Part shown: piece by piece, positions 39,694 to 53,917 of the stretch
Position numbering within the stretch: the first letter of the stretch is position 1
Layout: every line of letters begins with the position of its first letter
From: Planctomycetota bacterium
GTDB lineage: Bacteria > Planctomycetota > Phycisphaerae > Sedimentisphaerales > Anaerohalosphaeraceae
Direction of reading: 5' to 3'
DNA: 57,351 nucleotides
Assembly (NCBI GenBank): GCA_019456225.1
Contig: VRUI01000026.1
Location: forward strand, 1-57,351
Translations under genes and position numbers: made by a program
Notes under the pieces: model-generated
What the model saw: only the letters and a program-made list of their open reading frames with translations
Told to the model about the DNA's origin: nothing
Databases searched by the model: none

Positions 39694-40050
39694 TTACCCT
39701 TTCCTTTGTCGGTCTTATCGGCCCTCGAAAAAGTTTAAAAAAATGGGGGTTTTTTTGCGCACTCCGTTTGGCATAGGCAATTCTGTTTCTTATAGTTTTA
39801 TTGTAGGCAGTAACACAGTTCATTTAAAACTTAAGAAATTAACAGATTACAAATAATTGCAAGTGTGATCAAGCCGTAATTACAGTGCCCACACTATAGG
39901 TGGTAGGGTGAGAAACTATCGTTCCCCGCGGCTAACACTTGCAATACTAAAGAAACAGAATTAAACAAATGTAAATAATGGTTTTGAACGGTTCAAAACT
40001 GAAAAGCTTCTTGTGTAGTTCAATTTGTACTTTTTTTTAGGAGAAAGATT
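39694..40050 (+). ncRNA. Long structured leader of the major prepilin gene (candidate regulatory RNA)
   Basis: There is no gene in these 357 bases. AATTCTGTTTCTT (39779-39791) is the exact reverse complement of AAGAAACAGAATT (39950-39962). Inside lies a second perfect inverted repeat, ATTGCAAGTGT (39856-39866) with ACACTTGCAAT (39935-39945). Inside that, AGCCG (39872-39876) pairs with CGGCT (39929-39933). Small inner stems such as AGTG-CCCA-CACT (39884-39895) are possible. A separate 8-bp hairpin GTTTTGAA (39981-39988) with TTCAAAAC (39992-39999) and eight T (40031-40038) lie just before AGGAG and the ATG. The consensus elements of the c-di-GMP-I, SAM, TPP, FMN, cobalamin and purine riboswitches are not found, so the class is unassigned. 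Confidence 0.55.
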
Positions 40051-40563
40051 ATGAAGTCTAGAAGCAAAAGTGGTTTCACCCTGGTAGAAATTCTGATCGT
40101 GGTAGTTATCCTGGGTATCCTGGCAGCTATCGTAATTCCTCAGTTTAGCCAAGCTAGTTCTGAGGCTCGTGTATCGAGTGTAAAGAGTAACCTGCAGATG
40201 GTTCGTTCACAGATCGAGCTGTACAAGATTCAGCATGGCGATGTGCTTCCTGCTGGTACAGCAACTGAGCTTGTGACTCGTCTTACTACTAAGACGAACT
40301 ATAATGGTGCCGCATATACTGCTGCAATGGAACTTGCCGGCGATCCTTCTTATGGTCCTTATATGCAGAAATGGCCTGTAAATGCTGTCAGCCAGTTAGG
40401 TAGCGGTGTTACAGCGGCAGGCGTTCCTGACGGTTCTGAAATATCAGTTGTAATCACAGATCCTGCTGTTGACGCTCTTGATGCAGCCAATGGTTGGATT
40501 TATAACAATGTTGATGGAACATTCTTTGCTGTTGATGCAACTGTTGAAATGTGCAACTGGTAG
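40051..40563 (+). CDS. Type IV major prepilin (PilA-like)
   Basis: The product is 170 residues from ATG 40051 with AGGAGA upstream. The leader MKSRSKSG is cut after Gly8, giving mature FTLVEILIVVVILGILAAIVIPQF, with Glu at +5, a textbook type IV pilin N-terminal helix. VRSQIELYKIQHGDVLPAG is the planctomycete prepilin segment. The single, strong gene with a long leader and its own terminator, at the head of a pilus assembly locus, suggests the main pilus subunit. The head domain (about 60-170) ends in a Cys-containing tail (EMCNW); only one Cys is evident, so no disulfide. Confidence 0.92.
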   Translation: MKSRSKSGFTLVEILIVVVILGILAAIVIPQFSQASSEARVSSVKSNLQMVRSQIELYKIQHGDVLPAGTATELVTRLTTKTNYNGAAYTAAMELAGDPSYGPYMQKWPVNAVSQLGSGVTAAGVPDGSEISVVITDPAVDALDAANGWIYNNVDGTFFAVDATVEMCNW

Positions 40564-40589: not shown

Positions 40590-40635
40590 AGCCGACCGGC
40601 GGTGGGATTACAAGACACTCCGGTCGGCTTTTTTT
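40590..40635 (+). terminator. Rho-independent terminator of the major prepilin gene
   Basis: AGCCGACCGG (40590-40599) pairs perfectly with CCGGTCGGCT (40620-40629), followed by seven T. It separates the prepilin from the minor pseudopilin genes. Confidence 0.92.
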
Positions 40636-40699
40636 AGAGCTGCTTGATTGACTGACATTGGACTTTTCTGAATTTTGAAAAAAAGGAAAGACTGGAAAG

Positions 40700-50473: not shown

Positions 50474-51907
50474 TTGGGAACCAAAAAATATTATTTAATT
50501 TTTATTCTGATCCTTTCCGCTGTAACATTAGTGGCGAACATAGTGTCAATAGGCTTTAAGCCAAACCCGGCTGCTGTCATAGCTGTTGTCACAGGTCTGT
50601 GCGTCCTGATAGCTTTGTCTGTTTTCCTGAATTACTTGTCCGGGACGATCAGTTCTTTGGAGGTCATTTCAGAAAAGCTTAAAGAAGGCAGACCTGACGA
50701 ATTGCACATGAGAGGCAATGCGGCTATAGAGTCGCTGCTTGATGCCATAAGGCAGTTTTCCGCTGACTCAGTGCAGGAAACAAGGGATATGGAGAAAAAG
50801 ACTGCCGAATACAAACTCGAACTCCAGTTACTGACTAAGGAAAAGGAAAACACCGAAGCTATCATCTACAGTATCAGAGACGCCGTTATAGTCTCGGATG
50901 AATATGACAGGCTTGTCATGGCCAATGCAGCCGCCGAAGAACTATTTGGTTTCAAAAAGGATCCGGATGTCTCGATCTCCCTTGAAGAATTTATAGATGA
51001 TAATGACTTCATCGAGCTTGTCCGCCAAAACAGGCAAAGCAGGCAATGCCATGTAAAGCATGAAGTTACTTTTGACGGAGATCAGCATCAACGGACTTTC
51101 GACTGCATAATCTCATGCATGAAGGATAACGAAAATCAGGTATCCGGCGTAGTTGCCGTCCTTCACGATATTACCCGTGAAAAAGAGATATCCAGAATGA
51201 AAAACGATTTCGTTAGTCACGTATCTCACGAACTCAAGACGCCGTTGGCTTCTATTAATGCTTATGCCGAGATGCTTGTCGACGGAGAAGCCGAGGACCA
51301 GGAAACCATTACCGAATTCTGCACGATTATCCAGAGCCAGGCACAGAGGCTCAACCGCCTGATCGAAGAGATTCTAAATATCTCCAGGATTGAGTCGGGC
51401 CTTGTAAAGGTCAATAAGGAATGCCTCAGCGTTGCTATAGTTGTTCAGGAAGCGGTAAAGATGATAGAAAGCTATGCCGCTGAGAAGAATATTACGGTAA
51501 ATTTGCCGGCCCCGATTATCCACGACCAGGTAAATGCCGATAAAGATATGTTAAGTCAGGTTGTTATAAACCTCTTGAGCAATGCCGTAAAGTATACAGA
51601 GCCCGGAGGAAACATTAAAGTTGACAGTGAAGTTAACGAATCGGATAAAATAGTTCACGTTACCGTCACTGACACTGGTGTAGGGATACCTCCGGAAGAC
51701 ATAGAACATGTTTTCGATAAGTTTTATCGTGTCGAGGCGAATAAAAAATACGCGAAGGGAACCGGGCTGGGCCTTAATCTTGTTCAGCAGATTGTTGAGA
51801 CGGTACATGATGGAAAGGTTTTTGTCACCAGCACCATAGGTGAAGGAAGCACTTTTGGTTTTGACATGCCGCTTGCAACAAGCCAGGTAGAAGAAACTGT
51901 TAAGTAG
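50474..51907 (+). CDS. Membrane sensor histidine kinase with PAS domain
   Basis: The product is 477 residues from a TTG start at 50474 preceded by GAGAGGGATG. Two membrane helices (about 6-26 and 36-57) sit near the N-terminus with hardly any periplasmic loop. A coiled-coil linker, then a PAS domain (about 130-235, IRDAVIVSDEYDRLVMANAAAEELFG), the dimerisation domain with His252 in VSHELKTPL, and the ATP-binding domain with the N box NLLSNAVKYTEPGG, G1 VTDTGVGIP and G2 GTGLGLNLV complete it. Its partner is probably the CheY-like regulator 15 bases downstream. Confidence 0.9.
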   Translation: MGTKKYYLIFILILSAVTLVANIVSIGFKPNPAAVIAVVTGLCVLIALSVFLNYLSGTISSLEVISEKLKEGRPDELHMRGNAAIESLLDAIRQFSADSVQETRDMEKKTAEYKLELQLLTKEKENTEAIIYSIRDAVIVSDEYDRLVMANAAAEELFGFKKDPDVSISLEEFIDDNDFIELVRQNRQSRQCHVKHEVTFDGDQHQRTFDCIISCMKDNENQVSGVVAVLHDITREKEISRMKNDFVSHVSHELKTPLASINAYAEMLVDGEAEDQETITEFCTIIQSQAQRLNRLIEEILNISRIESGLVKVNKECLSVAIVVQEAVKMIESYAAEKNITVNLPAPIIHDQVNADKDMLSQVVINLLSNAVKYTEPGGNIKVDSEVNESDKIVHVTVTDTGVGIPPEDIEHVFDKFYRVEANKKYAKGTGLGLNLVQQIVETVHDGKVFVTSTIGEGSTFGFDMPLATSQVEETVK

Positions 51908-51922
51908 AAATGGAGAATAAAT

Positions 51923-52306
51923 ATGTCGCAAAGAAAAGCTTTAGTAGTCGATGATGAGATTCATATTGTTCAGGTCGTAGCGATTAAGCTTCGCAACAAT
52001 GGTTTTGATGTTAGAACAGCCGAAAACGGTGCCGTTGCGCTCGAGCTTATTAAAACTGAAAAGCCGGATGTTATTGTGACGGATTATCAGATGCCTGTAA
52101 TGAGCGGACTAGAGTTCATCGAAAATCTGCGCGGCGATCCCGAAACTGCCGACATCCCGGTAATAATGCTTACTGCCAGAGGCTTCGCGATCGAGGATGA
52201 AAAGAAGGAGCAACTCAAAATAGCAAACTGTCTTAGTAAACCTTTCAGTCCCAGAGAGGTTTTAAGATGTATCGAAGAAACATTGAGTACAAGTTCGGTT
52301 ACCTGA
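51923..52306 (+). CDS. CheY-like single-domain response regulator
   Basis: The product is 127 residues and is a receiver domain only. D10-D11, phosphorylation site D54 in VTDYQMPV, Thr in IMLTARG and Lys in LSKPFSP are all in place. With no output domain it must act through protein contacts, for example with the HD-GYP protein encoded next or with the pilus machinery. Confidence 0.92.
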   Translation: MSQRKALVVDDEIHIVQVVAIKLRNNGFDVRTAENGAVALELIKTEKPDVIVTDYQMPVMSGLEFIENLRGDPETADIPVIMLTARGFAIEDEKKEQLKIANCLSKPFSPREVLRCIEETLSTSSVT

Positions 52307-52333
52307 CACTGATTCAAAAGGAATAGGCATTCT

Positions 52334-53917
52334 ATGAATGAAATATTATACAAAAAAATACCTGAAGGACAGTTTGCTCTACTTGAAAAATTCTCAAAGA
52401 GAGTAAACGGTTTTGCCGCAGATTTTGCCGCCTTTGATGTCATAGGAGAAGTGTTGCTGGATTCTCCATGCGGCTCGGCTTGCCAGTGCCATGAGGAAAT
52501 GAAAAATTTCGCGGCCGATGTGCTTAAGGAAGACTTTGATAACGTCAGGTATAAAGATGCGGAAAGTGCTTTTTTTGCCAGATGTCTAAAGTTCGACGGC
52601 GAAACTGTTGCCGTTGCCGTAACTAATGTTACAGGGCAGATATCCAGTGACAGGGAAAAAGAGCTTTTCACGGAAATTCTTGAAACTTTCGCCAAAGATT
52701 TCGAGCAGGGATCCCTCCATTCCCAGCAGATCGAAATGGTAAGTTCAGAACTTGCCCAGACATACGAAGAGCTTGTTCTGCTTTACAATATGAGCACGAA
52801 CATGAAGGTTACCCAGTCAAATGCGACATATCTGCAGATGGCATGTGACCAACTGACGCAGCTTGTCAATGTAGAAGGAATCGCGATCTTTCTGCAAAAA
52901 GAGATTGAAGAAGAGGAAACTCAGTATGTTTTGATAGCAGGTTCCGGTCTTATCGCCGTTGATCAGGTTATGGCAGACATCCTCCAGCTTCACCTTATTG
53001 AAGAGATCGATCTGGGCAGAGAGGTTCTTTTAGACAGCATGGTTGACTCGCCATTTAAATATGACTGGCCCGAAAGGATTAAAAATATTATTGCCGTCCC
53101 GCTTCATGGAGGCGAAAAGATGATAGGCTTTATGGTTGCTACAAACATCCTCAATAAGCCGGATTTCGACAGTATGGAGACAAAGCTCTTCAATTCCGTT
53201 GCTAACCAGTGCGCAATTTTTGTAGAGAACGGCAGGCTTTTTGGAGACCTGAAGGAACTTTTCATCGGTTCACTAAAGGCCCTGACAAACAGCATCGATG
53301 CAAAAGACCAGTATACACGGGGTCATTCCGAAAGAGTGGCCTTTATTTCGCGGTGGATCGCCGAAGAATTGTCGAAACACCGTTCACTCGAAGATGAATA
53401 TATTCACATGATCTATTTGTCGGGCCTCCTTCACGATATAGGAAAGATCGGGATCAGCGAATTGGTTCTGTGCAAAAACGGCAAGCTAACAGAAAGCGAA
53501 ATGAATGTCATCAAATCTCATCCTAAGATAGGCGCATCGATATTGTCAGACATCAAGCAGATGAGCGGGATCGTTTCCGGAGTATTGTGCCACCACGAAA
53601 GACCAGATGGTAAGGGGTATCCGGAAGGGCTTTTAGATAAGCAGATACCGCTGATAGCCCAGATCATAAGTCTCGCCGACGCCTTTGATGCTATGACATC
53701 GAGACGTATTTACAGAGAGGCGATGAGTATTAAAAGGGCGCTTGAGGAAATTGAAAAAGGTCTCGGCACGCAGTTCGACCAGGAGATCGGCGAAATCTTT
53801 ATAAAAAGCGATGTCAACAAACTCTGGACAATAATCCAGGACGGTTTTATAGAAACCTGGGATTACAGTAATTTTGATGAATACGGTACCGTTGCCGTCG
53901 GGACGTTGCTAAGATGA
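52334..53917 (+). CDS. GAF and HD-GYP domain protein, probable cyclic-di-GMP phosphodiesterase
   Basis: The product is 527 residues. A region with Cys (SPCGSACQCHEEM, about 45-57) is followed by a GAF domain (about 155-300), then the HD-GYP domain (about 315-500). The HD pair H367-D368 lies in LLHDIGKIGI and the defining HHERPDGKGYP motif spans 420-430, complete. HD-GYP enzymes hydrolyse cyclic-di-GMP to GMP through pGpG in a di- or tri-iron site. Four Cys near the N-terminus might bind metal. Lying between a CheY-like regulator and a STAS protein, it may be the effector of the kinase pathway that controls pilus use. Confidence 0.9.
   Translation: MNEILYKKIPEGQFALLEKFSKRVNGFAADFAAFDVIGEVLLDSPCGSACQCHEEMKNFAADVLKEDFDNVRYKDAESAFFARCLKFDGETVAVAVTNVTGQISSDREKELFTEILETFAKDFEQGSLHSQQIEMVSSELAQTYEELVLLYNMSTNMKVTQSNATYLQMACDQLTQLVNVEGIAIFLQKEIEEEETQYVLIAGSGLIAVDQVMADILQLHLIEEIDLGREVLLDSMVDSPFKYDWPERIKNIIAVPLHGGEKMIGFMVATNILNKPDFDSMETKLFNSVANQCAIFVENGRLFGDLKELFIGSLKALTNSIDAKDQYTRGHSERVAFISRWIAEELSKHRSLEDEYIHMIYLSGLLHDIGKIGISELVLCKNGKLTESEMNVIKSHPKIGASILSDIKQMSGIVSGVLCHHERPDGKGYPEGLLDKQIPLIAQIISLADAFDAMTSRRIYREAMSIKRALEEIEKGLGTQFDQEIGEIFIKSDVNKLWTIIQDGFIETWDYSNFDEYGTVAVGTLLR

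Follow-up and report, generated by a model that had tools for sequence, protein, structure and literature searches.

A candidate boxA and a conserved folded leader RNA precede the major prepilin gene in a family of Planctomycetota

Introduction

The boxA element is the site on nascent RNA that is bound by NusB and NusE (S10). To our knowledge, antitermination through boxA has been described chiefly in rRNA, in CRISPR arrays, and in a small set of regulatory genes, and the cases in mRNA come mostly from proteobacteria. Pilin and surface genes are in turn known to be preceded by GEMM/c-di-GMP-I riboswitches (RF01051). In E. coli, boxA is both necessary and sufficient for the rRNA antitermination complex (PMC10250234). 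BoxA also promotes transcription through CRISPR arrays (PMC7862264). The boxA in the leader of E. coli suhB represses that gene (PMC5725501).

Here we describe the leader of a major prepilin gene within a 57,351-nt stretch of DNA from a Planctomycetota bacterium (the window; its genome is called the query below). As in rRNA leaders, a boxA stands shortly after the promoter of an untranslated transcript, and its sequence matches the boxA of 16S leaders in the same family; unlike them, the pilin leader belongs to an mRNA that codes for a protein, and an intrinsic terminator follows the gene. It shares with the boxA leaders of CRISPR arrays (cited in PMC7862264) a boxA outside rRNA and early in an untranslated transcript, but the pilin boxA precedes a structured leader and a gene rather than repeats. 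Both suhB of Enterobacteriaceae and the pilin gene carry boxA in the 5' UTR of an mRNA, but in suhB it is near the ribosome-binding site and repressive, whereas in the pilin leader it is far upstream, with a conserved folded RNA between (PMC5725501). Like GEMM/c-di-GMP-I (RF01051), this is a structured leader before a pilin gene, yet neither the query nor its relatives have an Rfam match there.

Results

The prepilin gene opens a cluster resembling type IV pilus/type II secretion systems (PilM, PilO, secretin, T2SSE, T2SSF). The T8 run that a preliminary description had placed just 5' of the Shine-Dalgarno sequence is present at 40031-40038, and relatives have hairpins similar to the terminator 3' of their prepilin genes. 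Within the pilus cluster, 50474-53917 encodes a PAS-domain histidine kinase and a GAF-containing protein of the HD-GYP type.

40051..40563, + strand: major prepilin gene (N_methyl), with N-methylation motif; first gene of the pilus cluster
40039..40044, + strand: Shine-Dalgarno sequence AGGAGA
40590..40636, + strand: intrinsic terminator after the prepilin gene, a 14-pair stem and then a U run

A leader RNA before the prepilin gene had already been proposed, and this part of the proposal stands; the promoter and boxA had been missed. The promoter consists of a -35 element, TTGGCA, at 39768-39773 and a -10 element, TATAGT, at 39791-39796, and it is conserved. A common motif, TTTGGCA-N-TTTATTTCTTATATTTT, occurs in the regions upstream of the relatives' prepilin genes, with TTTGGCA followed by a conserved spacer ending in TTTATTTCT and then by TATATTTT, and the motif is kept in many loci of sister families, across much of the order. 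Transcription from this promoter is predicted to start at ~39803-39806. In two genomes (G024 and G033; loci L025 and L055), the promoter is kept and the leader is only ~60-100 nt long, with no folded body.

39768..39796, + strand: sigma-70-type promoter (TTGGCA, 17 nt, TATAGT), conserved before the major prepilin gene
39804..40050, + strand: untranslated leader of ~247 nt, running from the start predicted by the promoter position up to the prepilin start codon

The inverted repeats reported in the preliminary description are all there: the 13-bp repeat is exact at 39779-39791/39950-39962, the 11-bp repeat is exact at 39856-39866/39935-39945, and the AGCCG/CGGCT stem lies inside the latter. Shuffled sequences put the expected number of perfect 13-bp repeats with arms within 200 nt at 0.1 in the 57-kb window, where one is found, and that of 11-bp repeat matches at 3.0, where there are 10. 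The further proposal, a stack of the 13-bp and 11-bp helices within a single RNA, did not hold up: the 13-bp repeat has its 5' arm between -35 and -10, and this arm would be absent from the predicted transcript. In relatives, the promoter region pairs with the region 3' of P2 (see below) no better than when partners are permuted (6457 of 20000 permutations reach the pairing of the true partners). Because its 5' arm is in the promoter spacer and the pairing is not kept in relatives, we rejected the outer 13-bp helix as an RNA element. The perfect repeat that joins promoter spacer to leader is thus rare by chance, yet not conserved.

39779..39791, + strand: 13-bp repeat, 5' arm, within the promoter spacer and not expected in the transcript
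39950..39962, + strand: 13-bp repeat, 3' arm, pairing not conserved

Shortly after the predicted start lies a candidate boxA.

39818..39829, + strand: boxA-like candidate NusB/NusE site GTTCATTTAAAA, degenerate, located by its score against an rRNA matrix

The 16S leaders of the family contain GYTCTTTGACAAG 217-244 nt before 16S, and a boxA matrix was built solely from the family's rRNA leaders. This matrix detects boxA in 22-23 of 24 prepilin leaders, at +10 to +37 relative to the predicted start, and many of the copies are identical to the rRNA boxA (GTTCTTTGACAAG); the leader of G025 has none, and the scores in G014 and G021 are marginal. The query copy is in register at +15, and none of 1000 shuffles scores as high. 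It deviates in two places: position 5 is A, which is also seen in a single rRNA boxA from the family (G035), and position 13 is C instead of G. A tolerant rRNA-like pattern, widened to admit A at position 5, has six matches in the 4.45-Mb query genome, among them the prepilin leader, the 16S leader, and an apparent 16S-23S spacer. The prepilin boxA is conserved and matches the rRNA boxA of the same organisms, the query copy being degenerate; judged from the predicted start, it would lie early in the untranslated transcript.

Perfect boxA sites also occur elsewhere in the family. One, rRNA-like, lies ~100 nt upstream of an apparently Cas1-like ORF (G030:C18:5777, L246), and boxA may therefore also mark a CRISPR locus in the query's family. 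Others, in G004 (L222) and G002 (L220), precede look-alike ORFs (SRSDYxELAxFHYR).

The best-studied boxA in an mRNA, that of suhB, offers one model for the pilin leader, in which Nus factors repress through translation inhibition and Rho-dependent termination (PMC5725501). We consider repression of this kind very unlikely here, as the suhB boxA is near the start codon and the pilin boxA is ~150-400 nt upstream, near the transcript start.

Downstream of boxA the leader contains a folded body, in which P1 (the 11-bp repeat) encloses a core of P2, P3, and P4.

39856..39866, + strand: P1, 5' strand (the 11-bp repeat of the preliminary description)
39871..39935, + strand: conserved core P2-P3-P4, from a model built without the query sequence
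39872..39877, + strand: P2, 5' strand, AGCCGT
39888..39890, + strand: P3, 5' strand, CCC
39906..39908, + strand: P3, 3' strand, GGG
39912..39916, + strand: P4, 5' strand, GAAAC, one A-C mismatch in the query
39921..39925, + strand: P4, 3' strand, GTTCC
39928..39933, + strand: P2, 3' strand, GCGGCT
39935..39945, + strand: P1, 3' strand

Of 39 genomes in the query's family, 14 carry the P1-P4 body ahead of their major prepilin gene. In the consensus of the core, P2 (GCCG/CGGC) closes a junction from which a variable P3 and a short P4 (GAAC-NNN-GUUC) extend. UAAaGAUAC and GCGAAGAAC are nearly constant across the 14 genomes, and together with UCUC these conserved unpaired residues surround the three-way junction. 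As had been asked of the leader, compensatory changes are found among relatives, both in P1 and in the P2-P4 core. In the core, 89% of cells are paired as opposed to 36-50% with partners slid, and double changes occur in 9 of 14 pairs compared with 4.4 in shuffles; the alignment was not fitted to the structure, but the structure itself came from this alignment, and the figures therefore lean in its favor. The core alignments span P2-P4 only because the distance from P1 to P2 varies. P1 differs in sequence among genomes with its pairing kept, and when 3' flanks were permuted among genomes, the observed energy was not reached in any of 100000 trials. The piece enclosed by P1 folds better than shuffles (z -2.86, 1/300), and the whole leader is not outstanding by this measure (z -1.45 and -1.54). 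Comparison of the sequences thus indicates that this is a structured cis-acting leader RNA whose P1-P4 body is kept by evolution.

When the core model built without the query was run over the 57-kb window, 39871-39935 was the sole match, at 19.3 bits (E 5e-4). Since scores of 22-30 bits occur by chance across 397 genomes, 19.3 bits alone would not suffice, and the match is convincing because it is positioned in the orthologous leader. There is one good copy of the core per genome, always before the prepilin gene, and no good match was found outside the family. In a class-wide search of the 397 genomes, the new matches that were inspected were weak and lay within or next to coding genes of ordinary kinds, ClpB and enolase among them; the core thus looks restricted to a single family. 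A comparison of the core with the sister-family leaders gave no match, and a DNA-level search for close relatives within the family gave short matches only.

The hairpin at 39981-39999 is likewise present, with 9 bp according to the repeat finder and 8 bp in the preliminary description.

39981..39999, + strand: distal hairpin GTTTTGAACGGTTCAAAAC, near-identical between the query and four further genera

G014 has a compensatory variant, GATTTGA/TTCAAATC. In most relatives the hairpin is followed by CCGATACCGAAA, which is shortened in the query and lacks CGATAC. Sister families of the order have a different leader, in which UUAAGU, a hairpin, and CGAUA occupy a comparable position. Their motifs (GGACACTTA..AAGTGTTTTCGGACGT; GGAGGATTTG; GTTAAGTC-hairpin-TCGATA) are conserved in L066, L067, L070, L071, L073, L075, L076, L081-L083, L089, L091, L106, and L117. 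There was no Rfam match in the sister-family loci scanned, and an alignment fold of their distal element gave no consensus structure.

In ~10 relatives the body is replaced by unrelated hairpins. The promoter is kept in these leaders, and so is boxA in all but one; those retaining boxA include G004, G008, G009, and G028-G031. The leaders of G008, G009, and G037 (L145, L030, and L037) contain, in some cases, an inserted repeat resembling intergenic elements of the form CACAGATT..AATCTGTG.

A rival explanation is a leader that binds protein or is processed by RNase, in which the body would stabilize the mRNA or serve as an autoregulatory site, whereas boxA would be incidental or vestigial. This is possible but doubtful. 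Stable helices with freely varying sequence in a variable body are expected of a stability element, and the query boxA is degenerate. However, boxA is the more constant element, near-fixed at +10 to +37 and rRNA-like in 22-23 of 24 leaders.

An Rfam search had been proposed for the leader, and it assigned no known riboswitch class: no family, RF01051 included, reached its gathering threshold. Scans of the query and of 24 loci from relatives against Rfam 15, at both the gathering thresholds and permissive ones, gave no leader match above chance. The folded body is a candidate new RNA family, with good covariation in the alignments and absent from Rfam 15. A search of the query's genome for c-di-GMP-I found none, but the control matched nowhere, which makes this negative weak.

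Could the body nevertheless be a riboswitch aptamer, for c-di-GMP or another ligand, that controls pilin expression? The conserved unpaired residues around the three-way junction and the position before a single gene are of the kind an aptamer would have, and a HD-GYP-type gene with a GAF domain lies 12 kb downstream of the leader (52334-53917). The 3' strand of P4 could also pair with the Shine-Dalgarno sequence in 8 of 14 leaders, a possible switch, but this pairing fails in the query, where 34% of other windows pair as strongly, and where the site is AAAGGG. Besides the missing Rfam match in query and relatives, the occurrence in one family only, as a single good copy in each genome and invariably ahead of one and the same gene, and the loss of the body in ~10 relatives in which the promoter and mostly boxA remain make an aptamer distinctly unlikely. 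The retention of boxA in leaders with a replaced body speaks against the view that the leader serves mainly as an aptamer. The suggestion that the leader answers HD-GYP/c-di-GMP signaling loses its footing on the same grounds (one copy per genome, the same gene, a replaceable body), its sole link being the gene 12 kb away.

Discussion

We favor, at a probability of roughly 55%, the reading that the boxA leader recruits a Nus antitermination complex, with the body serving as a shield or in translation control. A strong conserved promoter would start a ~250-nt untranslated leader before the major prepilin gene, with boxA in its first 40 nt. As expected from how boxA is known to act, NusB and NusE (S10) would bind this boxA on the nascent RNA and convert RNA polymerase into an antitermination complex of the rRNA type, which could cross the untranslated leader at a high rate without Rho termination. 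P1, closing P2, P3, and P4, and then the distal hairpin would stand before the ribosome-binding site as a stable shield or folding unit, and this could keep the pilin mRNA productive and its expression high.

The persistence of boxA where the body has been replaced fits transcription, not an aptamer, as the constant function, and the early position of boxA resembles the rRNA and CRISPR cases, which makes Nus-dependent antitermination through the leader the likeliest such function. Several observations weigh against this reading. The query boxA is degenerate, G025 is without one, and the scores of G014 and G021 are borderline. C is not in excess over G in the query leader, which therefore shows no evident loading site for Rho, and two leaders (G024 and G033) measure merely ~60-100 nt. 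Furthermore, the E. coli suhB boxA represses its gene, and boxA alone does not set the direction of the effect (PMC5725501).

A more far-reaching version would combine both parts in one device not described before, in which an rRNA-type boxA on a pilin mRNA is gated by a new three-way-junction RNA. We think this improbable; if true, pilus output would be set by the same Nus machinery as ribosome synthesis.

Under the antitermination reading, a family-wide boxA on planctomycete pilin mRNA would extend boxA antitermination to a cell-surface structural gene and would give a testable reason for long structured pilin leaders. A gene for a surface fiber thus seems to make use of a mechanism familiar above all from the genes of ribosomal RNA.
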